The position numbers and the translations under genes are program-made. Below the pieces are notes generated by a model that saw only the letters and a list, made by a program, of their open reading frames with translations, had not been told where the DNA came from and ran no database searches. This document shows positions 4,690-42,640 of a stretch of DNA of 64,000 bases, piece by piece (the first letter of the stretch is position 1; every line of letters starts with the position of its first letter). The stretch lies in the NCBI GenBank assembly GCA_021234155.1, contig JAJEKV010000025.1:16299094-16363093 (forward strand), in the 5' to 3' direction. This DNA comes from Isoetes taiwanensis. Its lineage: Eukaryota; Streptophyta; Lycopodiopsida; Isoetales; Isoetaceae.

Positions 4690-5275
4690 CTTGGTAGATT
4701 GTTTCTCTATGGGTGTCAATACACCCAATGCAAATGCAAATGCAAATGGTACCATTAGTATTTTGCCTCTTTACGGGTGTCACAACTCACAACACCAAAT
4801 GCAGATGCAAATGGTGCCACCATTTGCTTGGTAGATTGCTTCTCTATGGGTGTCAATACACTCAATGCATATGCAAATGGTGCCATGGCGCCATTTGCTT
4901 GGTAGATTGCTTCTCTATGGGTGTCAATACACCCAATGCACATGCAAATGGCGCCATTTACTTGGTAGATTACTTCTCTATGGGTGTCAATACATCCAAT
5001 GCACATGCAAATGGCGCCATGGCGCCATTTGCTTGGTAGATTGCTTCTCCATAGGTGTCAATACACCCAATGCAGATGCAAATGGCGTCGCAACGCCATT
5101 TGCTTGGTAGATTGCTTCTCCGTGGGTGTCAATACACCCAATGCACAAGCAACTAACGCCATTTGCTTTGTAGATTGCTTCTCGTCGGGTGTCAATACAC
5201 CCAATGCATATGCAAATGGAGCCGTGGCGCTATTTGCTTGGTATAGTGCTTCTTTTCGCGCCAATTCAAATGCAT
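4690..5275 (+). repeat. Satellite of about nine 62-73 bp units with ATGGCGCCAT palindromes
   Basis: Each unit reads ttggtagattgcttctc, then gggtgtcaatacacccaatg, then gcanatgcaaatggcgccat. Unit starts are near 4690, 4828, 4899, 4961, 5031, 5104, 5167 and 5237, with a diverged unit near 4758. Each unit contains two palindromes: gggtgtcaatacaccc and atggcgccat. Two copies expand to ATGGCGCCATGGCGCCAT. Period close to a multiple of three leaves long open frames on both strands, which are artefacts of the repeat. Confidence 0.9.
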
Positions 5276-5659
5276 GGCGCCAGTTGCCTGCTTGTTCGTC
5301 TGATTTACCTGCTTGTTCGTCTGGTGTGCCGTTATTGATGCCTCTTTGTTTCAGTTGTGTTACGCGTGGATCCATAGTTCCAGTCCGAGCAAATAATTAT
5401 GATGACAGACAGGAGATGGTGCATGGAAGTAATGAGGATGAGCACGTCTGCTCCTACAGGCTCCAAAAGAGATTGCAGAAGAGAGCTTTACTTGCTTGTA
5501 AGAGAGATGTCTGGAGAATCTGAAGGAATTTACCAGCCAGGTATCGTTGTGAATATGAAGAAGGTTCTCAAGAACGGTCACAATGATTGGCTCCGTGTGG
5601 TCCTTGAGGACACAAATGAACAAAGGATCACAACAACAAGAGAATGGTCATTTAGCGAA

Positions 5660-6095
5660 GTGGGCTTGCGACGTTCCTGCGACGTGACGTCGCAATTTAC
5701 GTGACCATGCGACGTCAATGCGACGTCACGTCGCAGAAACGTCGCATACGACGTGTACTGCGACGTCTGACACTCGTGACCTGGCAGATCTGTCACGCCA
5801 GGTGGATGTCAGCGCCAAGTGGACGACAGTTGCCACATTTGCGACGTCACGTCGCATTCGACGTCGCATCCCTTGGTCTATCTGTCACGCCAGGTGGACT
5901 GGGGCGCCGCGTGGACGACAGGTGCCACGCAAGGTGGATGTCTGCGATGTGACGTCGCATGCGACGTGACGTGACATTACAGAACGGATGACATGTCAGT
6001 ACGTATTTGCCACGTGTACTGCCAAGTCGTAGGTGACCTGGCAGGTGACCGTTGACAATACGTCGCGTGCGACGTATACAGCGATGTCAAAAACT
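5660..6095. repeat. Left subterminal CGACGT array of the CACTA element
   Basis: Many copies of (T)GCGACGT and its complement ACGTCGC occur, often as gcatgcgacgtgacgt palindromic clusters, mixed with tgtcacgccaggtgga units. Dense short motifs near each end are where CACTA transposases bind in other plants; here the role is inferred from position. Confidence 0.75.
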
Positions 6096-6120
6096 CATTT
6101 CTTAGTTGGGTGAACATGTG

Positions 6121-23965: not shown

Positions 23966-25600
23966 CTTAAATCTATGTTTTTTTGTTTTTTTTTTTTTAA
24001 CAGCGCATTCAATTATTTTTGGGATATGATTTATGGTTTCAGGAATTATATCCATATCAAATCCCCCTGAAACCCCCTGTTATTATGCTACATATTAAGC
24101 CATGAGGTTTAATAGAGAACAAAGAATTATAAGCTTTCCATAGATCGTGGCTATGGCAATACTTGCCAATGCCATTAAACAATATAGAGGATATATTCTT
24201 TCTCCTCCTCTTTTTTAAATATCTAGTACATAAGCCTTTTGAGCAGTAGCAATCCTTTCTGATTGAACCCACTTCATATGATATGGAATCCGAACACCCC
24301 AAATAGGTCGTATAGATCGGAAATTTTATGTTGTAGATCCACGAGAAGAATACTATTGTCTTTGTATTTGTAGACAATATGGGCACTCTAATCTTTCTCA
24401 GCATCTTTAGTATCCATGTTGATTTATGCATTTGCAAATTCGTCAAAGGAGTTAGAGTCGCAATCAAGGAGCCTTTGGTCACCAAGCTGAGTAATCAAAA
24501 TAGGATGATTCTATAAACTGAAAACCCAATTTCTATTCATGGTATTTTTAGTTTATCAGATGAAAATTTGGTATTTATATGCTTAATGGAGTCTATCATC
24601 TAAATTTAAAAAGTGATTCACAAGCAATACTATAAGTCCCCATCACAATTCATGTTGCTTTCGTAGTTGCTTGATCTTCTTCTTCTGGTCCTTCCGGGAC
24701 AATGAGGGCCTCACATTATGGCTAAAGCTCTTTAATAAGTTAAGTTCATTGCCTCCTTGAAATTTGAACCAGCTGAAACATCGTACTGTATATTCTTCTC
24801 TCGAGCTTCTTCTTTCTCTTGTAACTTAATCGGCACCAGAACCCCAACTATCAAGTTGAACTTAATATCTACTTATGGGATCTCGCTTACTACTATAATA
24901 AAAGTAGTACCACACTTATTACTATGGTGAATCCTTTCTTTGCCTTGTCATATTTACGTTAACAATTTATGCATGCCATATTTTTCATTACCAAAGCACA
25001 ATTTCACATTACCAGAAACATGAGTGATCAGAAATAAGCTTTGTTACAATAAAACAGTTTATGTCAAAGACTATCCATGCTAATATAATAAGCTGTTATA
25101 TTCATAATTATGGTATCTAAACTAATCTACAATGTATCCTGATCATTTTAGCATATGAATAAAGTGCCCTACATATCTGTACAAACCTACGAATCGGCAA
25201 GAGCGAAATGTACTTCATGCATGACCTTGCAAGCATAAAAGCACAATAAATGTGAGCAAAACCTGATTCTTTTTGCTTCATAAAATGGTGGAAGGCTCTT
25301 GATCTTTTGGTCCTTCTTTAGGTCTGTTTTGGAATTGAAGCCTCCTCCACAAAATCGAAATGCAAGACCCATAGATAATCCAGCAATTTGCCTCTTACCC
25401 AACATGCCTCTACTGCAACAGTAGGGTCTCCAATCTTCACAATCAACAGCCCTATGGGATAGATTTGATTTTAAGTACAGAGACCTCAAATAGCTATTAC
25501 AATCCCATTTTCGAAATACTCAATTTTTATTAAATTGGAACGTGGTTATACCTTTTGCATCCTCTGCTTTCCCTGATTGATATGCTAAAAGCCCTTGATA
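23966..25600. other. Region without a confident gene
   Basis: A 142-codon open frame on the - strand (24057-24485) and another at 25187-25489 are not recognised. Neither has a clear domain, and neighbouring frames also look partly coding, so these may be scraps of an old element. The latter ends at a GT-like donor after CCACCATTTTATGAAGC, which could mark a real exon of unknown identity. Confidence 0.35.
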
Positions 25601-25639
25601 TCATGCTTTATATGTCTATCTGGGGACTGAGAAAGAAAC

Positions 25640-26201
25640 AGATGAAGAAAGGCCGAAAAAGCAGACGGATCTTAGCTTCTTGCTCTGCCCTTGAAGCTCC
25701 ATTGGATCTGCAAGCTTGATCTGCAACAATGAATCTGAAGAACAGGAGATCTGCAACAAACAGGGGCTCGATCTGTAGCAAACAGAAGCTCCATGTGCAA
25801 GAGGCAAAAAGACTGCCACTGCAGACTGTGAAACTCTCTACTAGCAATGACTACCTAGCAGCCAAGAATAGCTGCCTTGCAATGTCTGTACCACGCCGTG
25901 CAGATTCTGAAATAAGTGACAAAATCAGCCAGCGAGATCTTGGAAAAGTATTAGGTGTTCACCCAAGAAACCTACAAAAGGCAAAGAAAAAGAGGGAAGA
26001 GATCGATTACAATGGTGGGAAATGGGTTTCTTATAAGAGGACTAAAAGATTCGATGCAATTTCAGATGAACAGATAGAAAAGATTCAAAATTTTTAGATT
26101 GAGAACACCAGAGTGTCTCCTAACACAAAGGATGTTAGAACTAGAAGATTGGAGAGAAATGTAAGAGAAAAACATGCTGCCCATTTCTAGAGGAATCACA
26201 G
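25640..26201 (+). pseudogene. HTH N-terminal exon of a transposase-like gene
   Basis: The open frame 25729-26097 encodes a basic protein. Its core SQRDLGKVLGVHPRNLQKAK followed by KKREEI looks like a helix-turn-helix. Past a TAG the same frame continues with IENTRVSPNTKDVRTRRLE up to a GT donor at 26202. The same arrangement is found at 41.9-42.5 kb, where the stop position is Trp (FWLDNSKVSPKIGDV). This copy is therefore broken by at least two stops (26096 and about 26188). A DNA-binding role for the transposase is inferred from order and from the homologous locus. The next exon of the model begins at about 27839. Confidence 0.6.
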
Positions 26202-26608
26202 GTTAGTTTATTTCTGTTATTCATGTTTTCTTAGTTATGGTGCTTAGTGTGGTGGTGCATGTGGTGGTTATTGTGTTGTACAGTGATTGTGGTGTACTGT
26301 ATGCAGCATGTGAATTGTGGGTAGTTGACTCTGAAATACAGCTAAATAATATTTAATGTTGGGAATATTAGAACATGACAGAATTGAGTATTCCTTTACT
26401 GGGTCTGTGTGTACAGTCTAAAAATATTTGAGAATGACAGATAACTAACTGATCCTAAAAAGTACAAACTTTTGTTGAATAAAGACAAATTTTTGTCAGA
26501 TGAAAGTACAGCTCTGTTAGAAAGTATAATATATAAAAAAAAGGAGCATATCTTACAAAATTTGGCTTTCCATTGAAAGCTCTGTACCCGAGAACTAAAT
26601 TTACATGT

Positions 26609-27133
26609 ATTTCCTAAGCAGCAGGAAATGCTGGTATGACTGGCTCGACTTCTGGTGCATCCAAAATTACTGTTTTCTGCACTAAAGCATCTAAGCTTTC
26701 TGCAGTCATCTAGGATCAGGTTTGCTAGTGCTTCCTGGATCCCCTCGTGGTAAGAACGCAACCCTGCCAGTAATTCCCGCTGTTGCTGACTCAGAGCCAG
26801 CAAGTGCCTAATAACCCATGTTATACCTGTCTTTGCAGCAGCATGTAACATAAGGTCATGGACCTTGTCTGAGAGCTCACTTCCTGTCAATCCAACCCAA
26901 AAAATAGCCATTGAAGGCCCAGCATCCCGTCTGCTGTATGGGTTTAAGGTGGCTTCGAATTGAGCAAAGAAGGTGGATTTAGGCATATCCACCTTCAGAG
27001 ATTGGTCACGAGCCCTGGTTAAAGCATGCCGAAGGCCCTCCTCGTTCACTTTAGGTAGGCCGTACCCGTATTGAGCTTTGAACATCCCTCCCATTGCCGG
27101 AATGAACTTATAAGCTTGAGAACGAAACACCAA
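26609..27133 (-). CDS. Unrecognised ORF inside the transposase intron, opposite strand
   Basis: From its first Met the frame runs AMGGMFKAQYGYGLPKVNEE, then GLRHALTRARDQSLKVDMPK and STFFAQFEATLNPYSRRDAG, and a helical Leu/Ala-rich part ending LANLILDD. After a one-base shift near 26700 it continues to a natural-looking end (MTAESLDALVQKTVILDAPE, then VEPVIPAFPAA and TAG at about 26610). It lacks signal or membrane segments and matches no family I know. It lies inside the intron of the + strand transposase gene, which suggests an accessory ORF of the same mobile element, though capture or chance cannot be excluded. Confidence 0.4.
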
Positions 27134-27269
27134 AAATCAGACATAGGAACAGGATTTAGGACCCAGATCCTTTAATATTATTAGGAGAGGAATGTAATTA
27201 TTATCAGGGTGTACGAATTTCAGAAATGTTATGAGAGCAGGCTAGGCAAATTTTTTATGGCAAACGAAA

Positions 27270-27815
27270 TAGGATCAAAGTGATGTGATGTGATGTGTGG
27301 TGTGGTGTGGGGTGCGTTATATCTATGGTGTCATGTGGGTGTGTGCATGTTAAATGTATGATATGTGTGGATTCAATTTTATTTATTCTCCCCCCTCACC
27401 ACACCACCACACCACACCACCACCACACCACCACCACACCACACCACACCACCACACACACCACACCACACCATACCACCACACACACCACCACACCACA
27501 CCATACCACCACACACCACCACACCCCCCTTCCCCACCACACTCCACCACCACCACCACCACCACACACCACCGCCACCACCACACTCCACCATCCTGCA
27601 CAATGCCCTACAACTCCTTGCTACCACCACACATTTGGTGTATGGTGTGTGATGAATGGTGTGGTGTGGTGAATGGTGTGCTGTGGTGGGGTGTGTGTGG
27701 TGGGGTGTGGTGTGATGTGTGGTAATGTACACAGCACTAAGGTGCTCGTTCTGGTGAATATGATGAGTGTGGGGCATGGTATGGTGCATGGTTTGGTGTG
27801 GTATACACATCCTAA
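27270..27815. repeat. CA/GT-rich array with inverted arms
   Basis: A TGTGGTGTGG-rich arm (about 27270-27330), a CCACCACACCA core (about 27394-27600) and a second GTGGTGTGG arm (about 27640-27800) follow one another, so the core can pair with either arm. Open frames on both strands through it (His/Pro/Thr on one, Val/Trp/Gly on the other) are low-complexity artefacts. It lies in the intron upstream of the transposase exon. Confidence 0.9.
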
Positions 27816-27833
27816 CAGTTTAGTGTTCATTTC

Positions 27834-29696
27834 ATGCAGATGCTATTGTTCAAGAGGTTCAAGGACCAACATCCACAAATTAAGATTCGTCTTCGAGTTT
27901 TTGAGAAGCTAAAACCCTGGTTTGCTGTGAAATTGAAGGACTTCAATAGTTGTTGCATTCAGCACGTGAGGATGCAAATGCTAGTGGATGAACTCAATGG
28001 GATGAGAACCAAATATCCGAAGAATTGCACTTACACCTGCGATGTTTGTAGATCACATGAACTTGGTCAATGCAGGGCACACCAGCATAAAATTGCAAGT
28101 ACAGGAAGCCTGTGGAGATCTATATTGTGTTCAAAGAGTGAATTAGATGAGTTTCACAAGAAGACGTGCATCCTTGGAGATTGTGAGCTGTGTGGAATCA
28201 AGAAGTTTCAGACCTGTCCCATGGAAGAAAGTGGCAGTAACAGGAAAGTGAAATGGGAGTACATTGACTATGAAAAAGACAACGTCTCGAGTTCTGGTAG
28301 CAGACTGACTCATCAGTACAATGAGACAGAACCCAAGGAGCTTCTAGATAAACTGAAAGAGCATCTAAAAATCTTTCCACTGCATAATTTCAGGTACCAA
28401 TGGCAGGCAAAACAATTTAAGGAGCTTCTGGAGAATTTCCCAGCAGATGCATGTCTTTCAGTAGTGGATTTTGCAGAGAACTATACATTCGAGGAACAAG
28501 AGGAGGTGCAGTCGATGCGCTGGGTCAATAACCAGATTACCATTTTGGTTCAAATAACATATCAGTACGGCTCAGTGGTATATGAGCTTATCAAGGAAAT
28601 ACATTACTATGTATCAGATGATAGGGAACACGATACTTTGTTCATGCAACACTGCTTCATGAAGCACCACAAATATCTGGAGCAGAAAGGAAGGGTGCCA
28701 AAGAGACATTACGTGTTTTCAGATGGTGCAGCATCTCAATTCAAGGCTTCTATACCATTTTACTTTGTGGCTAGGTACACAAACGACACTGATGTCTATA
28801 TGATGTGGATTTTTTTTTGTTCTAACCATGGGAAAGTTGAACACGATGGCAAAGCTGCTGAGTTGAAGAGATGGTTAAGACAACTACAATTAAAATACAG
28901 CAGCATAAAATTGAGTAATGCTCATGAAGTGGTAGAAGTTGCCGAAGAGATGTTTACTTGTGGAACATCCGAGTGGATGAACACATCTGAAACCAGCAAA
29001 GAGGAAGGATATAAAAAGGTTCTTTTGGGAAGTCAAGGTGGAGGATATAGATAGAAAGAAAGCATGGGGTATAGAAAGGATTTTGGACACTAGGCAGATC
29101 CATTGCGTACATGCATTCAATCCTGAATCTCCATTGCAGTTGCACACGAGGGAACTTTCATGCTTCTACAGCTATTGCTTGGATAGCATGTGAGAGTTGT
29201 GTGAACAAGCACTATGGAAACTTCAAGTTATTGTACCATCTTCCAATGTGCATGCTGACATTGAGGACCGTAAATCCAGCAGATCCTTGTTCTCCTCCAA
29301 TCCCACGATGTTAGTAGAGGCACTTAGAGTTGGTGATAATTTTGCTGTCGTTGCTCCGAAAGGGAATGATGAGGGTTCTAAATTTTGGATTCTGATGTGC
29401 ACAAAACCAAAATGGATAGTGGAGAAAGACTTCCAGCTCAATGGAACATGGTACCTCGTCGGTGATAGTGTCATAGAAGGTATGTATTACAAGAAGGGCG
29501 CAAGATCAACCGTCAGCTATGATCTTTGCAGTAAAGACGCCTTAGACATAGTATTCACAACACAGATTTGTGCAATCAGACTTCACATGCCACCAACTAA
29601 ACGTCAAAACATGACTGTATATAGGCTGGATCCTTTAGATGAGAAGAAAATTTTATAAAATTTACCCGAAGTTCTTTCTGATGAGGATGAAATGTA
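27834..29696 (+). pseudogene. DDE-type transposase-like gene, catalytic and C-terminal part
   Basis: An open frame of 406 codons (27834-29054) follows a splice acceptor at 27838. It has a Cys/His-rich zinc-binding segment (CTYTCDVCRSHELGQC, later CILGDCELCGIKKFQTC) and then an RNase-H-like core. Candidate acidic residues are D212 in SVVDFAENY, the aspartates of VSDDREHD, D297 in FSDGAASQFK and D338 in NHGKVEHDG. A one-base shift near 29040 and a TGA near 29190 separate a C-terminal part (to 29657) that starts VGDNFAVVAPKGNDEGSKFW. The DFAENY, SDG..QFK and HGK..DG motif set is one I recall from transposase-like proteins common in aquatic animals; Sola-like affiliation is possible but unchecked. 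It would cut and join element DNA. It is inactive as read. Confidence 0.65.
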
Positions 29697-29915
29697 AAAC
29701 CATTCTGTAATTTTCAGAACTCATCTGAAGTTTTGTGCTTCAGCTGTGAAAATGAGTTTGTCTTGATTTCTTTTGAAGATTTGAATTCTTTTGAACACTT
29801 GATCCCTTTGTTTGTGAGATGAATTGAATATGAATTTTCATTCAAATGAATCGAGGTTACAGTAACAATTATATACATAAGAAAGATATACAGTGATTTT
29901 AAAGTACGAGGTGAC

Positions 29916-30890
29916 TCATGCACCTACATACTTCCCAATACATATGTTCCTCTCAGTTCCAGCTTTTGTTGCTTCTAATCTTAAAATTTCAAGCATGAAC
30001 ACTCTAACATCAACTAGATCCTGGTCTGAAATGTCAACAACCTGCAGTTAACCACACTTTGTCAATAACAGAGTTTGGTTTGTCTGCTGCATTTGAGTTG
30101 ACTTACTAGATTAGGCAACAATATATTCACTCCTTTCAAGTACCCCCTCACAAATTTGTGCATAAACGAACATACGGCAGGGCCACATGAATGACCATCG
30201 GTTTGAAAAGGCGTTCTAGAAATTTTCACAACATCTGAGGTTGTAAAGCTGAAATTATTGTGTCCAAGCAATTCCAGGAACCTGCATTCAAAGTTTGTTG
30301 TCATTGTGCTACAACAGCAAAATGCAATGAGCAAGCGCTAACCTCTCAATATGTCTGCTTCTGCCATGCAAGCCCGAGCTATCAAAGTGATATATCCCTA
30401 GTTTATATCTCTACGCGAGACACGCGCGGCTTACAATCAGAAAACATGTCCAATGATGTCCGTCACAAGTAGGCACAAACATGTACTGGCACTATCCAGA
30501 TTCACATGTTTTCTTATTGTTTTGTAACTATTTGTGCCTTTGGACAATGTCGAGTGAAAAAGAGGGTCAAAGAAATGAAAGAGATGGCTCATTCCTTGGA
30601 GCATCAAGTAGTATTCCATGTATCTGCAAACATATGCATATGATGGCACAATCCTGATGATCAAAAATCAGATGAAAGTATCACCTTGAGAAGAGGGGGA
30701 TCAATTGATCATTGAACCACTGCGTATCAGCTTCCAAAATTTTGATGTCGGTGGAGCTAATCACGACAGTTTCAGTTCCACTCAGCACCACTTCCAAATG
30801 TGTATGTGGCTTTAGATAGACAGGGACTGTCGAAGCTCTATCATCTCTAGTTCTAAACACACACGAGAACATTTGCTCACAATCCATTCA
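29916..30890 (-). pseudogene. Ulp1/SENP-type (C48) cysteine protease domain
   Basis: On the - strand the exons are about 30887-30685, 30626-30486, 30485-30343, 30281-30107 and 30041-29916. The first ends LEADTQWFNDQLIPLFSR, matching the W-(L/F)-N-D start of Ulp1 domains. The third reads FVPTCDGHHWTCFLIV (catalytic His) and YHFDSSGLHG (catalytic Asp). The fourth reads TPFQTDGHSCGPAVCSFM (oxyanion Gln and catalytic Cys). The last ends GKYVGA and TGA. Exons 3-4-5 join in phase. One TAG lies in exon 3 and exon 2/3 needs a shift or unusual splice. C48 enzymes cleave SUMO-like conjugates; related domains are carried by several plant transposons. It follows the FCP1-like domain on the same strand and ends about 220 bp from the convergent transposase gene. 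Confidence 0.75.
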
Positions 30891-30982
30891 AATATTTTAA
30901 ATTGAAAAAGTACAACACATATCATAAATTTTTTTTTTACTTATATTGTCTTTCAAAGAGTTTAATAAGAATCCCACATGTT

Positions 30983-31795
30983 CTACATTTGATTTTCTTT
31001 CACATAAGCAGGCACACTTTCTGCAGCCAGAAGTCCTTCCAGCCATGGTTTGAGTTGCTCCAAAAGAAAATTGGAATCCAACCTGTCGAGAGCAAAACTA
31101 TTTGGACATATCATGGTGTTCGGCTGGTTGGCAGAACCCTTATATCTGCTGTCATCTATCAACAATGTGTTTTTCACTTGGTATTTCCACTATTTCTGGT
31201 ACACTTTGGACAGATCCTTATGGAAAATTAACCACTTTTAATTTTGTGTTGGTGCAGTCATCCTGATTCCAAATAAAAAGAAATCTGCCCTTATATTCCT
31301 GCAACAGCTTTCTCATCAACAAGTCAACATTACTCTTAGCCATGCTGGACCACAATGCAATCTCAAATTTTGAAAAACACCATTCTAAGAACTCCTATAA
31401 TCCAGGTCTGGAAACTGCTGCCTTTTGAAGGTTCAATTTCTGGAGGGTCACTTCGGGCTCGGCCGATGCAGGGATCCTCTCTTTCAAATCATAAAACTTG
31501 CCTAAAACCCCATTAAAATCCAGAACAAGGAGAATTTCAGTTAACCTCTTGGTTTTTCTTTGTTGAGGTTGTATTGGACTTGATGAGCAGGCTGCATCTT
31601 GTTCAGGATACAGGGTTTCTTTGTCAACTTCATCACCTGCATCTGCCTGTGGCTCATGTTCAGCAGCAAAACTTTTGCCTGGTGAAGGATCCCATGCAGA
31701 ATGAATCTCAAGGGAATAAATTTCCCCCCCTAAAACAGATGCACTGGGAATCTCTTCGGAGCTGCAGCAGGTTCTAGAGTATCTGTAAAACAAAT
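30983..31795 (-). pseudogene. FCP1/NIF-type (HAD superfamily) phosphatase domain
   Basis: Read on the - strand: an acidic/Gln linker, then LTEILLVLDFNGVLGKF (motif I, about 31490-31535), RPGL-stop-EFLEWCFSKFEIALWSS (about 31345-31415), a MAKSNVDLLMRKLLQEYKG stretch, FLFIWNQDDCT, DLSKVYQK, and NTLLIDDSRYKGSANQPNT (about 31115-31175) ending EGLLAAESVPAYVKENQM. This is the order of NLI-interacting-factor/FCP1-like phosphatases, whose plant members often have LNG in place of DxD in motif I. Here the second Asp is Asn (DFNG), so catalysis is doubtful even before the TAG at about 31395. It lies between the zinc-finger segment and the Ulp1 domain on one strand, apparently in one gene, which would be an unusual combination. 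Confidence 0.7.
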
Positions 31796-31840
31796 CCAAA
31801 ATCAATAGAGTCTGCAGATGAGGGTTAGATATGATAATAT

Positions 31841-32400
31841 TTACCTCAAATGGTGTGATAGACATGGAATGTGATACTGGTGACTGCATTCTGCTATCAC
31901 AACTGGCAACATTTTACCCTCCCATTTCAGACACCGTCCACAAAATGGACAACCTTCGTCACCCTCTTCTTCTACCTCAGGAAGCATTGAAAGTGCAGGA
32001 TCTAAAGGAGTGTCATGACCACTACACTCAGAAAAAATCTCAAATCTTTGCATTCGAGGTTGCAGCTCCAGCAGTAAGGCTTCACATGCCTTTAGCTCAA
32101 TTTCAGTTCCTGCTAGTTCCTTATTTAATTGATTCAGCCCAGGCAACACTGTACCATTTAGCTCTTCATCCTTCAGTTCGCTTACAACCCGAATACCCTC
32201 TGCTGCTTTTGGATTTGCTGTCATGAATGATTGCCATCTGTGCAAATCAGCTCAAATTTCTGATGCTTTATGCTCCATCAACTCAATCTTTCTTTTGATA
32301 TCATTTTTACGATCCTCGTTTGCTTGCAATCGTTGCTTGCATCTATCAAACCTAGCTGATGTTGCAGCCAACCATTCCTTCACAAGTCTGCCATAGTCTA
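31841..32400 (-). pseudogene. Coiled-coil and zinc-finger N-terminal segment of the same gene
   Basis: After an acceptor near 32400 the - strand frame reads DYGRLVKEWLAATSARFDRC, then a Lys/Glu-rich helical stretch ending HKASEI, a TGA (about 32254), and continues ADLHRWQSFMTANPKAAEG. A coiled-coil-like part leads to a zinc-finger-like motif CPFCGRCLKWEGKML followed by ECSHQYHIPCLSHHLR (about 31845-31950). The frame then meets a GT donor (GAG|GTAAAT) and resumes at about 31790 in phase with the linker of the phosphatase domain. Zinc ligands C-x2-C ... C-x-H-x2-H-x2-C are visible; the ring type is not identified. Confidence 0.6.
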
Positions 32401-32464
32401 CAAAATAAAACACTACATATATGTCAGCCTCCTAACATAGTAAGCTACGTACTGATGGAAGACC

Positions 32465-33325
32465 ACAATCACACACCACACAACACAAGGTACTCTCTAC
32501 ACACCACACCATATACCACACACCACACAACACACAACACACGGCACAGTACACACCACACAACACGCTGTATACACTACACAACATAGGCTGTACTATC
32601 ACTACTACTGGCGGCACAATAACCTACACCACACCACACACCACACAACATACGCCACAAGACACCACACAACGCTCACCACTATTGACTCAAGACAAAA
32701 CTTACACCACACCACACACCACTCGAAGATAGTACACACCACACAACACACTTCACACACCACACAACGTTCACCACTATTGGCGGCACAAAACTTACAC
32801 CACACCCCACCCCACTCGAACATAGTACACACCACACAACACACTTCACACAGCACACCATTCACCACTATTGGCGGCACAAGACCTACCACACACCACA
32901 CCACACAACATGCACCACTATTGGTGGCACAATAACCTATACCACACCACACACCACACCACACAGTACATACCACACACATGGTGCATACACCACACAA
33001 TATTCACCACTATTGGCGGCATAATAACCTACACCACATCACACACCACACCACACAGTACATACCACACAACACGGTGCATATACCACACAACATAGGC
33101 TGCACTATCACCACTATTGCCAGCGCAATAACCTACACCACACCTCACTTGCTACTACTATCACTCCACATATGCCACGCGCCACAATATAGCAACACTA
33201 TTAGCACCATTGGTAGCACAACGCCTCACTCCACCACGACGGAGACACACCACACCACAAATGCTAGCATTATTCTCATCACTACACCACAAACAACATG
33301 CAACAACTCACCACTCACCAGACCA
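32465..33325. repeat. CACCACA minisatellite upstream of the zinc-finger gene
   Basis: Dense caccacaccacaca sequence with an interspersed longer unit containing caccactattggcggcacaa near 32680, 32768, 32864, 32918, 33006 and 33109, giving a period of roughly 55-105 bp. It lies directly upstream of the first recognised exon (- strand), probably in an intron, and resembles the array at 27.3-27.8 kb in composition. Confidence 0.85.
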
Positions 33326-35895
33326 CACATACCTCATCTCTTGTTTGAGGAGAGATTTCATCGTGTAACTAGTGGCATTCAATTCTGACTCCATTACGGT
33401 TCAATCGGCAAGAAGCGGCAAAAAAACAGAAGAAGAGGTGATTATTTCTTAATTCGAAATGAGGGACAATGACGTGGTATAAAATTCAAAATAACCGACG
33501 CTCATTAATTCACACTCCCGCAATCTTCGCTTCGGTATGCACCACCCGATTCTACCACAAAGAAGGTGCAAAAATGTGGCGTCAAAATGCGCGTTTTTGA
33601 TACACCACAGTGTGCTTTTACCCTTATTTGGTGTTGCTTTCGTTGATGCTTGCAGGGTCTTCTCTTCGAAAAATGGAGGAGGATGGTGTTGCTTTCTCGT
33701 GAGGTGAAGAGATAAAAAAAGCCAAAAAAAGTGTCTGATAGGGAAATGCAGTAAAGAAAAAGAAAAAAAACCTTGTGTGGTTTTGTTGTGTGCTTCTGCT
33801 ATAATGTGTCATCTTCTTGAATGCTTTGAATGTCCGCATATGCATGATGCATGGGAATAACCCCCGAACCTTTAAGGGGAGGACATGCCTTTAGGTTGCG
33901 CTCTGCGCAAGGGGTTCGATTCCCCTGGCTTGTTTGTCTGTTAAGTATAGCTCTTATTGTATGCAACAGGAGGCAGATAGAATGACTAAGGCGTCACGAA
34001 CAAGCCAAGTACAGAGACATTAGGAGTCAACGTTGTATTCATTTGCATTTATATGGTTAGTGTACTAAGAAATAGAGCCACACAAGTGTTTGATCCCGTC
34101 AAACACTTATGTAGAACAAGCGGTTACAGCCCAAACAGAATGCCCATGATGGCAACAACACATACAAGAGGCATCATTCCTGCATGCCTAATATCCCAGC
34201 AATAGTAGCAAAATTGCATGAAATTGCAGAACAAGGAGATGGAGACCACGAAGTGGTTGGTGATGGAAGTAGCACAAAGAGGACGGCAAACGTCTCTTGC
34301 AATCTGTAAACAGAATGTCCATGATTCTGGAGCCAGCAACAAGGTTTTGCAAGATAACAAATAAGTATCATATCGATATGATAACAAGAACTTGAACTCC
34401 ATTTGCTGCATCGCCATGTGGCATGCAAATACACTTATCATCATTATATTACTCTTCGTTTTCTTATCGTTTCAATATTGTTGGTTTCAATATTGTTGGA
34501 CGATTGTGTTATCCATGCTAGGCCGTCTCCCAGCCCCCCTGTGAGTGGAGGGCATGCACGAATCTCTCTAATCTACTTTTACGTAACAGCACGAACATTG
34601 GTGCAGCCATCATGCTAGATTCGTGAGGCACTTTGACCATTTTTTTACTGAGCAAGAGAGGTGGAGGCCTCCGATGGAGGCAGACGTCGGTTTTGAATCT
34701 TCCATCAGAGAGCAGGTCTCTCTTTTAATTAATTCGAAAGTTTCCCTTCTCCCTTGAATAAGGGAAAGGCCCCCTGGGCTTTTTCGTAAGGGAAAGCTAG
34801 CCGACGCGCGAAGCGCGGAGGCCTGCTTGACCTTCCGGAAAGAAGCCCGGGGGGCCTTTGCCCTACCAGAAAGAACCCTTACCTTCAATTCTGCTGCCAT
34901 AATGCGAGGTAAAATCAGTAGAATACGGGGTAGAAACGGTTGAATGCAGGGTAGGAACAACAGAATGCAAGGTAAAAATTTGAGCGGCATGCGAGATGCA
35001 CAATCTGTGTTTTCAGGAAAAGAAACACAGACACGTGTCAAAACACTATTGGACAGGGCAGCAGAATTGAAGATAAGGATTCTTTCCCTAGAAAGAATCA
35101 GCTCCTGTATAAAAATGGCATACGGAGGGGATGGCCTCCTTCCGAACTTCTTCAATTAATTTGAAATTACCCTCATCCCTCGTAGAAAGAATCAACTCCC
35201 GCTCCCGTATGAAAATGGCATACGAAGGGGATGGCCTCTCTTCCATTTAGTGTTTTACCCAGGATAATTCCAATGTCAAGATTTAGTGGTTCTGCACACT
35301 TGTGCGAAATGGAAAAAGTATGCTTTGCACAAGCTGGAATAAGTTTGGTATGGTGTAACTGCTAATGGTTGCAACTGCCACTACTTCTCGAGAGTGGGTC
35401 ACAAACTACCCATTATGCACTTTTCAAGTTTCCTTTTGTTCACATGTAACTTCCAAAAGAATGAAGTTCCAACCATATCTGTATGCTTATAGTTATGTAC
35501 AATAAGGTAACATCTATAAACTATCATGATCAGTATCTGCACAATGATATAGCAACCATAGAATTGCAGCATAATCTTGGTGATTGATTTACTAATGCAA
35601 ACGAAAGTTACACCCAAACAGAAGATTGGCTTACATGTCCATCCAGATTGGTGGAGATCACCTTGATTATCTATACAAACTTGAAATAACTAGTTGAGTG
35701 CCAGATTAGAGATAATTGGTATCTCTGTATACAAGCAGTGATTGATTTGATTTTATCTTGTCTGCAAAGAAAACCAATCCCCTGTTCTTCACAAGATCAG
35801 ACAACCGGAGAAGCTCAAATTTGAGATTGAGAAGCAGGAAAAAAACCATAGAACAATCTCATCTGCAGATCACAGAATCATCCTCAATCAGCTGC
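33326..35895. other. Region without a recognised gene
   Basis: No coding sequence is supported. A GGGTTCGATTCCCC box-B-like motif occurs at about 33911-33926 without a matching box A, so no tRNA is called. The segment 34610-35260 has open frames on both strands and a repeated phrase (tcccgtatgaaaatggcata-like, at about 35106 and 35203); its ctttccggaaagaag and gaaaggccccctgggctttt words are palindromic. It may be a decayed repeat. Confidence 0.4.
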
Positions 35896-35899
35896 TGCT

Positions 35900-36385
35900 C
35901 TAGTTATAGAATTCCATAAGTTCATCCAAGTTGAGATTTCGAAGAGATGGGTCATTGTTGTGAAGAAGCCAGAGGATATGCTCAAAAAGGATAGCATCAC
36001 AATCAAGCAAAATAAAACACCCTTCTTCAGCACCAGACCTGTGATCAAAACCTGTGAATTCTCCGACCTTGGTCCTTTCAAGTAAAGACTGGACAACTCC
36101 ATGCTCCAGGATCTGTGGCTCAACCCTGAAAGCTTGCCTTTCTTCTCCTACCAAAAGGGTCACCATATTTTTCGTCTTTCTTGAACTGTAAGGAAACAGA
36201 GTCTTGTCCCTTCCTTCCTTGTATGAAGCCGAAAAACAGAGCATTCTTGTCGATCCAATTGGCGAAGACGCTAAATCGTTATAGCCGAATTCGTTATGGC
36301 GCTTATGCGGCCAAATTATATCCCATCCACGAATTGCTCTTCCAATTCTCATGTTCAGACTCGATGAATCGCTAAAAACTACCAA
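35900..36385 (-). CDS. SAUR-like auxin-responsive family protein
   Basis: An intact single-exon frame of 161 codons. The C-terminal half carries the SAUR-type domain: NMVTLLVGEERQAFRVEPQI, then LEHGVVQSLLERT, then FILLDCDAILFEHILWLLHN and LNLDELMEFYN. The ILFEHMLWLxHNDxxSLxxLNL ending is a feature of one plant SAUR-like subgroup. The N-terminal 75 residues are basic and variable, as usual. Family members act in auxin-linked growth, and some inhibit PP2C.D phosphatases at the plasma membrane; for this protein the role is not known. SAUR genes typically lack introns, which agrees. No lesion is seen, and codons read cleanly from the first Met. Confidence 0.85.
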   Translation of the reverse strand: MVVFSDSSSLNMRIGRAIRGWDIIWPHKRHNEFGYNDLASSPIGSTRMLCFSASYKEGRDKTLFPYSSRKTKNMVTLLVGEERQAFRVEPQILEHGVVQSLLERTKVGEFTGFDHRSGAEEGCFILLDCDAILFEHILWLLHNNDPSLRNLNLDELMEFYN

Positions 36386-37950
36386 GACAAATTTTCAGCA
36401 GCTTATGCAAGAACCAAATCAAGACATGTTTACAAGCGGATCCAGAAAAATTTACAAACGGATTCACAAGAAATTACTAAGGATGAATAGATCAGCGGCT
36501 TACGCAAAAACAAGAAATATTTATAACTGGTCCAAATTCTCGCCGCTTATCACAATTTTTAGCCGCCGATCAAGATTTTGAGCAAGAAAGGAAAAACATC
36601 AAGCAGATGATCCAAAAAAGAGGTAAAAAATATTACCGAAAAGAACAAGAAGCACGTCAATTTATAAAGAGCTGGAACCTGCAAAGCTGTAGGACACAGA
36701 GGGCCCAGCCGGAAAAGTTCTTATAAGTAAGAAAAGAGGGCAAAGTACTTACAAAGAAACAAAAATTTACTCACCTCTCTTAAATTCCAAGCCGCGCCAT
36801 TAGCTGCGAAGAAATTAAGAGTGCATGACAGCTTCCACTGGCAAATTAGTTCTGCTTTTTCTGCTGCTTCAGACGCACTTACCTGCAGACCGAATCTACT
36901 ACAGAGTTTCTACCTATTCAAGGAATATCGGACCTACTCATTGACTATTAGATACTTCTTCAAAATTTTGATCAAATAGGAGCTGATTTTACTCGTTTGA
37001 TCCTACTTAATATTGCAAGTGGCTCGCCATAGTTATGAATCCTGGCTCGCCGTAGTTATGAATCCTTAGCTAAGCCATAGCTGGTTGGTAAACGAAAACA
37101 GAACGTGCTCGCAAATAGGGCATTTATGATGTAAGACAATTGACCTATTTTTTTGCACAATGCTGATATTGTATTGTATGTATTTGTGTATTGTATTGAT
37201 TTGCATTGCATTGTATTGTATTGCAAGTTAGCGATAAAATAGAATCAGGCACCATATGCCATGGAAATGGATGTGCGCATTTTTATCCCATTATCTTCAC
37301 CAGCTTGTGCAAAATGGAGATGTGCAGACCTCTCTCTTTGTAGGCCATCTCTGGTCCCATTCCAAATCTGGTAATGTCAACTGTAGGAAATAGAATGGTA
37401 TAACTGGGTAGCCTCAATCCATGGAAATAATCACGGACGTGTAGATCTAGTTGATCTCGCCACATTGACGTGCCTAGCTCTGATGTCTTCTCGGCTAAAC
37501 ACATGCTACAATTGCAAGACAGAGCGAATCCAAAAAAATGGCAATTGTGAGCACTCCATGAACCAAGCTTAACTATGCAGTTATCAAGTGATGGTGTTGG
37601 GTAGCAGGTTGTGAACACACTTACGTATGTTGTTGTTAAATAGAACAACATATTATGTACATACATTGTTGTACTACTAAACACTTCGATAAGATATCAC
37701 ATTGTTCTACTACTAAAAAGGTTCGATTAATACATAGTTGGTATTTGATTGATTGAATATCTTATATTGGCTATTGGAGTCCTAAAAAGAAGCTAATATA
37801 ATAAGATAGTTCAGCTACGCCCAGTGGTGATCTAGCCATGTTGACTTTAGGAGTCCTACGAGAATACTTTAGAATCATGTTGCATTTTAATGTACACTAT
37901 ATCCACCTGTTGTTGTCAATGTCATTGTGTGATGGCTAGCTCTTCTCAAT
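36386..37950. other. Region upstream of the SAUR-like gene
   Basis: No gene recognised. A tattgtattgcattgtattg-type simple repeat lies at 37168-37225. An open frame at 37283-37684 (- strand) has no known domain. Confidence 0.45.
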
Positions 37951-40455: not shown

Positions 40456-41140
40456 TTATTGAAAGTCCAGTTCTTTATCGTTTTCTTGCATGACCTGTAC
40501 AAAAAAAAAAGATTGAGGAAAACATACCTCATCAACACAATAACTCCTTGTAGACAATATTTTGGTGCATCTCGTAATGTTCTCTGGTGAGAGTAGGATG
40601 AGAGCATCTTCTCTCGTTCGCATGCGAGTAAGCGCAGTGTATAACTGGCCATGTGCGAAAACCTCGGTACATAGGTCGATAACGACACCATCCAATGTCA
40701 ATCCTTGGCAGCTATTGAAAGTGGTTGCATATGATAGTCGAAGGGGTAATTGACGTCTATGAATGGTCCAAGGCTGATTCTCCGGTTGATAAAAGAAGTC
40801 AGTTCTAGAGATCAGATACGTACATGCATCTTCTTGACTCGCCTCATCTAATACTCTTACTATTACAAACTTCGTGTGCATTGATACGACCATAACTCTC
40901 ACATTTTTCACTAGACCTTTTTCCATGTCTAGCCGTTCCATAATGTAGCATATTGCACCTACCTTAAGCTTTAGTTCATGGCCAGGTATTCCGGAATGTG
41001 TGAAGTTATTAAGGAAATCTGATGTTGCATAGGGGTGGTCATGTATAATTTCATCTTGTTCGGTGATGTGACCATGATTATAATAAGATTTGTCATAATT
41101 AGGAACTCTATTAAGAATGCGATCATTAAAACTACGCTCT
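40456..41140 (-). pseudogene. Helitron Rep/helicase C-terminal remnant (PIF1-like)
   Basis: The - strand frame reads FLNNFTHSGIPGHELKLKVG, AICYIMERLDMEKGLVKNVR, then TIHRRQLPLRLSYATTFNSC, QGLTLDGVVIDLCTEVFAHG and QLYTALTRMRTREDALILL. This is the end of the PIF1-type helicase of plant Helitrons (compare RRQFPLxLxFAMTINKSQGQ, VFSHGQLYVALSR), covering helicase motifs V and VI with the arginine of motif VI present. Upstream in frame is a TAA near 41145, and no Rep domain is seen, so only the tail survives. Rolling-circle transposition is the family's role. Confidence 0.85.
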
Positions 41141-41898: not shown

Positions 41899-42640
41899 TT
41901 ACAGAGCAGCTCGTACCTGTGTAATGTCAATATATTGAATTGGTTGTGTCCTCTTCTGCATGACATCTCCAATTTTTGGTGAAACCTTTGAGTTATCTAA
42001 CCAAAACTGAGCAACCATATCCTTCATAGCCTGATCTATAGTATTTGTTCTTGGATTTCGACCTGCTAATGCCCACAGATTTGTTCCACCTAGTGACATT
42101 CTTTTCCTTCTCTCCACTGCTAGTTTCATATTTCTAGGATGTATTTTCAGCAACTTAGCTGCTAGTGAAGTCTTCTGTAATTCTCCTTCCTCTCCAACCA
42201 CCATAGATAGTACAGAATGCTTTGCAGCAAGTTTGTCATTGCTATTTGCATGTTTGACATCTTGGAGGCCATCCTTTAAATTCTTTACCAGATCTGTTTT
42301 CACGATAGCCTCTTGAGGCCTTCCAATGACTGGCTCAAATAGGAATTGCAATCTTTTGTCCTGCAATAATCTTCTTGCAAATATACTTTGTTGTTTTGGA
42401 GTCAAATTAGATACCTCATTCATTATGAGATTTACAGCAGCATTCACCTTTCTTCTAATTGGCTTTGTCACGTATCCACCCCTACAAACCTTCTGTTTCG
42501 ATTTTCTTTGCCTGCTTGTAACAGTGCTTTCCGAAACTTCATCAACAGGAGGATTGAATCTGAACCCTTTGCTGACCTCGAAGTGCTTGCATGAGAGTCC
42601 AATCCTTCTTCCATAGTTTCTTCTTCAACTGGTGCTTAAC
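41899..42640 (-). pseudogene. Second copy of the HTH transposase-associated protein
   Basis: An open frame of 190 codons (42471-41899) contains NDKLAAKHSVLSMVVGEEGE, then KTSLAAKLLKIHPRNMKLAV and ERRKRM, then VAQFWLDNSKVSPKIGDVMQ. It parallels the frame at 25.73-26.2 kb (LAAKNSCLAMSV..., RDLGKVLGVHPRNLQKAK..., NF-stop-IENTRVSPNTKDV). Upstream, after an AG near 42640, the frame begins DVKHQLKKKLWKKDWTLMQ and needs a one-base shift to reach YVTKPIRRK. No catalytic exons follow on this strand before the Helitron remnant, so this is an isolated N-terminal piece of a related element. Confidence 0.6.

Follow-up and report, generated by a model that had tools for sequence, protein, structure and literature searches.

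Two convergent genes of one large DNA transposon in the lycophyte Isoetes taiwanensis: a transposase and a RING-like, phosphatase-like and SENP/Ulp1-like partner

The stretch of Isoetes taiwanensis DNA considered here (64,000 nucleotides of contig JAJEKV010000025.1, positions 16,299,094 to 16,363,093 of the forward strand, hereafter the window) carries transposase-like exons on its plus strand which face a minus-strand gene with zinc-finger, phosphatase-like and Ulp1-like segments, and the question that this locus raises is whether the two genes are accidental neighbours or parts of a single mobile element. A first-pass annotation, made from the letters of the window, had proposed one large DNA transposon at 25640-33325, and had found no terminal repeats. 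The two convergent genes are one large DNA transposon, as established by common termini, 4-bp target duplications, collinear copies elsewhere in the genome and the same gene pair in a sister family. The copy in the window is very probably a decayed representative of a cut-and-paste element that has inverted ends, duplicates 4 bp of its target and carries two genes, one for a two-exon transposase and a second that converges on it. Terminal inverted repeats do exist, and while both genes of the proposed locus stand, its edges do not, since homology to other copies begins at 25811 and the element ends at 33623. The features of this copy, which belongs to a family designated A, are as follows.

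25811-33623, no strand: transposon copy of family A, bounded by shared repeat edges and lacking the left ~615 bp and the left terminus.
25811-26201, plus strand: transposase exon 1, partial, a basic, helical region of putative DNA-binding type, with an in-frame stop at 26095-26097 and the donor CAG/GTTAGT at 26202.
26202-27839, plus strand: transposase intron (GT at 26202, AG at 27838-27839), with long GTGG/CACC simple-repeat tracts at 27.28-27.8 kb.
26396-27136, minus strand: antisense open frame within the transposase intron, common to family A copies, weakly constrained and with no Pfam match.
27840-29697, plus strand: transposase main exon, comprising a cysteine-rich part, the catalytic core and a C-terminal part, with the frame broken from ~29.0 kb.
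29916-30043, minus strand: last exon of the second gene with its stop, after an AG acceptor (CTGCAG); matched in seven long copies, though only partly in c1036 and c212.
30065-30667, minus strand: SENP/Ulp1-like protease part, in which the His, Asp, Gln and Cys of the motif can be read across more than one frame (copy c985 compared).
30968-31565, minus strand: NIF/UBLCP1-like HAD phosphatase part, its frame broken here (copy c1081 used for matches).
31758-31759, no strand: internal deletion, ~436 bp being absent relative to the seven long copies.
31844-32374, minus strand: part of the second gene that encodes the coiled coil and the RING-like zinc finger, placed by alignment to copies, Pfam and profile comparison.
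32450-33330 (extent approximate), minus strand: intron of the second gene, with CACCACA-rich simple repeats.
33335-33394, minus strand: start of exon 1 of the second gene, of which 20 residues are left.
33602-33623, minus strand: right-hand terminal inverted repeat, which in this copy is GGGTAAAAGCACACTGTGGTGT when read starting at the right end.

The edges of the element are common to many copies. When window 24200-26900 was used as a DNA query, 40 places were returned, and 37 of the 39 lying outside the window start at window 25810-25822, while a query with window 33000-36000 returned many places that stop at, or a few bases past, window 33623. Nine of ten other copies run on beyond the left edge for ~600-735 bases (the tenth, c212, for ~356), and because the sequence into which they extend is common to them, the window copy is truncated on its left side. 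The left terminus, GGGTAAAA, which the window copy lacks, opens seven of these ten copies, is slightly altered in c908, altered further in c1030 and absent from c212. Comparison of copies gives the ends of family A as GGGTAAAAGCACGYTGTGGTGT, inverted, and a 31-base motif from the right end has 373 genome copies at up to three mismatches, whereas its reversed control has none. Both end regions of 19 family A copies were retrieved, and in nine of these copies both termini could be read; for C1048 and C1037 no right end was found within the slices fetched. A perfect 4-bp target duplication flanks eight of the nine readable copies (AGTT, ATGG, CATT, ATGT, AGGT, AAAT, AGAT and ATAC, the last of these copies having one base changed in its right terminus), and the ninth, C1026, has the flanks TACT/TATT, matching at three of four positions. 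Insertion through cuts staggered by 4 bp is thereby shown directly. CACTA-type ends had been suspected from CACTGTGGTG, but this sequence lies 11 bp inside the true end and the idea was dropped; CACTA/EnSpm elements possess CACTR ends and 3-bp duplications, neither of which was found here, where the ends read GGGTRAAAGC and the duplications measure 4 bp. A shorter family A copy of ~3.4 kb, with both ends present and its interior deleted, was seen in slice L022.

The transposase exon has 111 matches in the assembly (102 of 11,284 candidates scored), and as the match lists contain only the best-scoring candidates, the co-occurrence counts given below are lower bounds. The first-pass annotation had called for a search for further copies spanning both genes, and these exist: all seven long family A copies (c1028, c1036, c1081, c212, c35, c977 and c985) are collinear with the window from the transposase across the second gene to the right end, in a set chosen by a transposase match with the right-end motif within reach, a choice that favours complete copies. 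Copies with one gene alone, which would have spoken for separate origins, are missing from these seven. It is consequently very hard to believe that two unrelated genes or fragments, for example pieces of a host phosphatase and Ulp1 beside a transposase, were joined by chance; the resemblance of the NIF and Ulp1 parts to host-type enzymes favours such a joining, yet the collinearity of 7/7 long copies, target duplications lying outside both genes and the repetition of the pair in the sister family described next all oppose it. The window copy itself is truncated and internally deleted, has lost ~720 bp of second-gene exon 1 near 33336 relative to c977, and shows broken frames in its transposase, NIF and Ulp1 parts in addition to the stop in transposase exon 1, and is thus dead and presumably unable to move by itself.

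The sister family, designated B, encodes a transposase ~60% identical to that of family A (58-66%) and has the ends GGGTGAAAGCATGTTGTAGTGG. Five of its copies were sliced, and in two, b1025 and b1019, the second gene is present and oriented as in family A, while b938, b1064 and b1070 gave no match, the 10-kb slices of the latter two possibly stopping short of the second-gene position. In b1025 the N-terminal, RING, NIF and Ulp1 parts are all matched at 28-44% identity, and in b1019 the N-terminal and NIF parts. Copy b1019 is flanked by the 4-bp target duplication GCCA/GCCA, and nested in its left terminus (slice L034, 796-1116) lies an element of 321 bp that shares the end motif, has the ends GGGTAAAAGCATGTTAGGGTG and is bordered by AAGC on both sides, and whose uninterrupted insertion site is present in b1025; this nested element is likely a non-autonomous partner. 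A further open frame (MANFTSWMLQ...) was observed downstream of the family B transposase, at 5038-5940 of slice L034 and 5507-6118 of slice L033, both on the plus strand.

More distant families were reached via the neighbour of b1025, and in these the convergent gene is shorter, with a coiled coil and a RING-like finger. Directly beside b1025 lie pieces of the transposase and second gene of a third family (slice L036, 3163-4197, minus strand). The transposases do match each other, that of the distant family k423 at 43% identity over 182 residues (E=6e-47), and comparison of the coiled-coil/RING part of families A and B with that of the distant gene returned a profile probability of 94.3 (E=9.6e-8). 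The NIF and Ulp1 parts were not found in five distant-family slices, which gave chance matches only (E of 0.27 or more); families A and B may have gained these parts, or the other families may have lost them. The pairing of the genes could also be counted. Of 113 places matched by one distant second gene used as query (8 of 121 matches having been dropped as secondary fragments of copies already counted), 43 lie at most 12 kb from a transposase place (150 of 151 matches used), and 42 of the 43 are convergent, against a mean of 0.235 and at most 2 in shifted controls. Similarly, in families A and B 32 of 102 transposase places lie at most 12 kb from a NIF place, 31 of them convergent (control 0.205, at most 2), after 9 of 111 transposase and 5 of 128 NIF matches had been dropped likewise. 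For the distant family D no termini could be made out (k1078, k1045).

Both genes bear the marks of selection. In family D the ratio of nonsynonymous to synonymous substitution rates (dN/dS) is 0.17-0.56 for the second gene (six copies), except in a nearly identical pair (0.87), and 0.29-0.43 for the C-terminal part of the transposase (three copies); in family A it is 0.24-0.45 for the NIF part and 0.35-0.52 for the transposase core. The two convergent genes have a long association under constraint. The antisense frame in the transposase intron, with a dN/dS of 0.40-1.77, is accordingly under weak or no constraint, and none of the five family B slices contained a match to it with E at or below 1e-3. 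The family D copies C952 and C1088 differ by about 1%, which suggests recent movement, unless the two are segmental duplicates.

The plus-strand exons reported earlier hold up, open reading frames at 27816-29054 containing DFAENY, SDGAASQFK and HGK.EHDG, and the C-terminal part continues in shifted frames to 29697, where it ends in the frame of other copies. The core motifs VVDFAENY, SDGAASQFK and HGK.EHDG supply D (DFAENY), D (SDG) and E/D (EHDG) with 84 and 38 residues between them, a spacing by which the enzyme would be of the DDE/DDD type, and they are retained not only in families A and B but also in the distant k423, which has an extra GT-AG intron inside HGK/GEHDG (at the slash). On our reading of the frames, the intron of the window copy appears to lie at the same protein position in families B and D.

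We somewhat favour membership of the Sola superfamily, with a Sola2-like element having gained an accessory gene. The name is provisional and follows published accounts, with which the size of the target duplication, the length of the ends and the style of the motifs agree. Sola elements are described as duplicating 4 bp of the target, with ends 11-1124 bp long, a range that includes the 22 bp common to both ends of family A, and as uncommon in flowering plants (PMC10741241), with Physcomitrella and Capsicum among the plant examples (PMC9033089). Those of the Sola2 type in slime mould have 12-21-bp ends and 4-bp A/T-rich duplications (PMC3627910), and Sola1 in Ectocarpus carries an accessory gene opposite to the transposase (PMC12477816). 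Likeness to Sola1 and Sola2 as so described thus extends to 4-bp target duplications, inverted ends within range, large size, DDE/DDD-style motifs in the transposase and accessory genes, antisense in Ectocarpus; the accessory gene here, however, joins RING-like, NIF-like and SENP/Ulp1-like parts, whereas those in the Sola accounts cited are Fanzor or ParB-methyltransferase genes.

Ulp1 domains are carried by other DNA transposons as well. Mutator-like elements (MULEs) make 8-11-bp target duplications, as opposed to the 4 bp seen here, where a MULE match in Pfam was also absent. The account of Ginger1 and of plant elements of the Mutator kind with Ulp1 (PMC2836005) would make an element of either kind a candidate, and Ginger1 additionally shares the 4-bp duplication; its Ulp1, however, where present, is fused to the transposase, and this fusion, its Gypsy-type integrase, its CCGG/CCGT targets and its TGTNR ends are all missing from the present element, which had no integrase match in Pfam either. 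A Ginger or Mutator element carrying Ulp1 is thus a most improbable explanation.

A more tentative alternative to Sola is that these two-gene elements represent a superfamily of eukaryotic DNA transposons not described before. It is favoured by the transposase having no relative in Pfam, NCBIfam or PDB sequences, where libraries cover eukaryotic transposons poorly (a PDB profile search returned two meaningless matches, to a mannanase and an interleukin, at E 0.019 and 0.048), and none confirmed in viral or bacterial/archaeal contigs, in scans built on short conserved patterns. The motif set, which we, like the first-pass annotation, take to occur in aquatic animals, in our view in their proteins, counts against this alternative.

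The stop of the second gene at 29918-29916 faces the transposase end at 29697, so that the gap of about 220 bp noted earlier is confirmed, as is the succession of minus-strand segments; the full order is an N-terminal domain, a coiled coil, the RING-like finger, the NIF domain, the SENP/Ulp1-like domain and a last exon ending at 29916. In an open-frame family A copy the NIF part matches PF03031 (E=4.3e-16) and UBLCP1 (E=0.00024), with HAD_IIID1 and dullard-like models below cut-off. The Ulp1 part scores 0.099 in the window and 0.0093 in c985 with Pfam, both below cut-off, and matches SENP5 (E=0.0076), its His, Asp, Gln and Cys residues being readable in c985 and the window. The RING part scores 0.0036 with Pfam in the window and 0.003-0.007 with the best RING-type models, all below cut-offs; the pattern C-x2-C .. 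C-x-H-x2-H-x2-C .. C-x2-C is readable in family D, and the distant-family gene matches RLIM (E=0.041). In the window copy, the Ulp1 and RING parts would be firm only by alignment to better-preserved copies. These matches liken the gene to UBLCP1/SCP (NIF-family) phosphatases and SENP proteases, from which it differs in joining the two in one transposon-borne gene and in the catalytic DxDx motif, which in family A reads LDFNGV, with the first Asp kept and the second replaced by Asn. Phosphatase activity is in doubt because of this Asn, and the phosphatase may be inactive. Simple-repeat tracts of CACC/GTGG type occupy the introns of both genes, at 27280-27820 and 32450-33330, and are mutually inverted; transcripts might form hairpins.

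A mechanism may be proposed for this transposon in which the N-terminal part of the transposase would bind the GGGTRAAAGC ends and the enzyme would insert the element by DDE chemistry, cutting the target with a 4-bp stagger. The second protein, as a product of the element, would act on post-translational marks: the coiled-coil/RING-like part, common to distant families, may add or read ubiquitin or SUMO, while in families A and B the SENP-type protease part could strip SUMO from the transposase or from silencing factors and the UBLCP1-type phosphatase part could act on the proteasome or RNA polymerase II. Since the phosphatase carries Asn and the protease motif is damaged in b1025, the NIF/Ulp1 extension may act by binding in some families.

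Several observations weigh against the account of the element given above. Within family A the RING part is near-neutral (dN/dS 0.60-1.03), and the role of the second protein is putative. In family B the region around the Ulp1 active-site Cys of b1025 appears degenerate, the RING part of b1019 was unmatched and its Ulp1 match was only chance-level, and b938 shows no second gene within 18 kb and may be a single-gene copy of the kind missing from the long family A set. Pairwise comparison of the N-terminal and RING parts between families A/B and the distant families gave only chance-level matches, and the N-terminal domain of the family A second protein had no match in those families (profile probability 1.3), so that an N-terminal domain common to both, which had been considered, is unsupported. 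With regard to the transposase, the dearth of relatives in the protein libraries counts here also, and for the putative RNase-H-like core a single-sequence fold of the window protein alone had a predicted local distance difference test score (pLDDT) of 31.7, too low to inform on it.

On the account preferred here, a two-gene cut-and-paste transposon, a lycophyte harbours many members of a diversified group of DNA transposons that may have been active recently; a literature search found nothing linking Isoetes with Sola transposons. A transposon gene that unites RING-like, phosphatase-like and SUMO-protease-like parts is documented by copies rather than by chance adjacency, and the second protein permits a direct test of whether transposons carry SUMO/ubiquitin enzymes against host silencing. 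A bolder proposal, speculative and on balance unlikely, is that the group forms a two-gene superfamily new to land plants or altogether, with a transposase and a convergent coiled-coil/RING protein as its pair; in one lineage this partner, having a UBLCP1-like phosphatase and a SENP-like SUMO protease as well, would supply the element with its own means of changing ubiquitin, SUMO and phosphate marks and thereby of escaping silencing.

Three further frames were recognized to the right of the element, all on the minus strand. A SAUR-type auxin-responsive gene frame (35900-36394; PF02519, E=2.3e-8) lies ~2.3 kb from it. At 41899-42624 is another N-terminal transposase exon, broadly similar to that of the element (31% identity, E=7e-16), beside which no catalytic exon was matched; it adjoins a Pif1-type helicase C-terminal frame (40456-41139; PF21530, E=3.5e-7) that is probably part of a Helitron.

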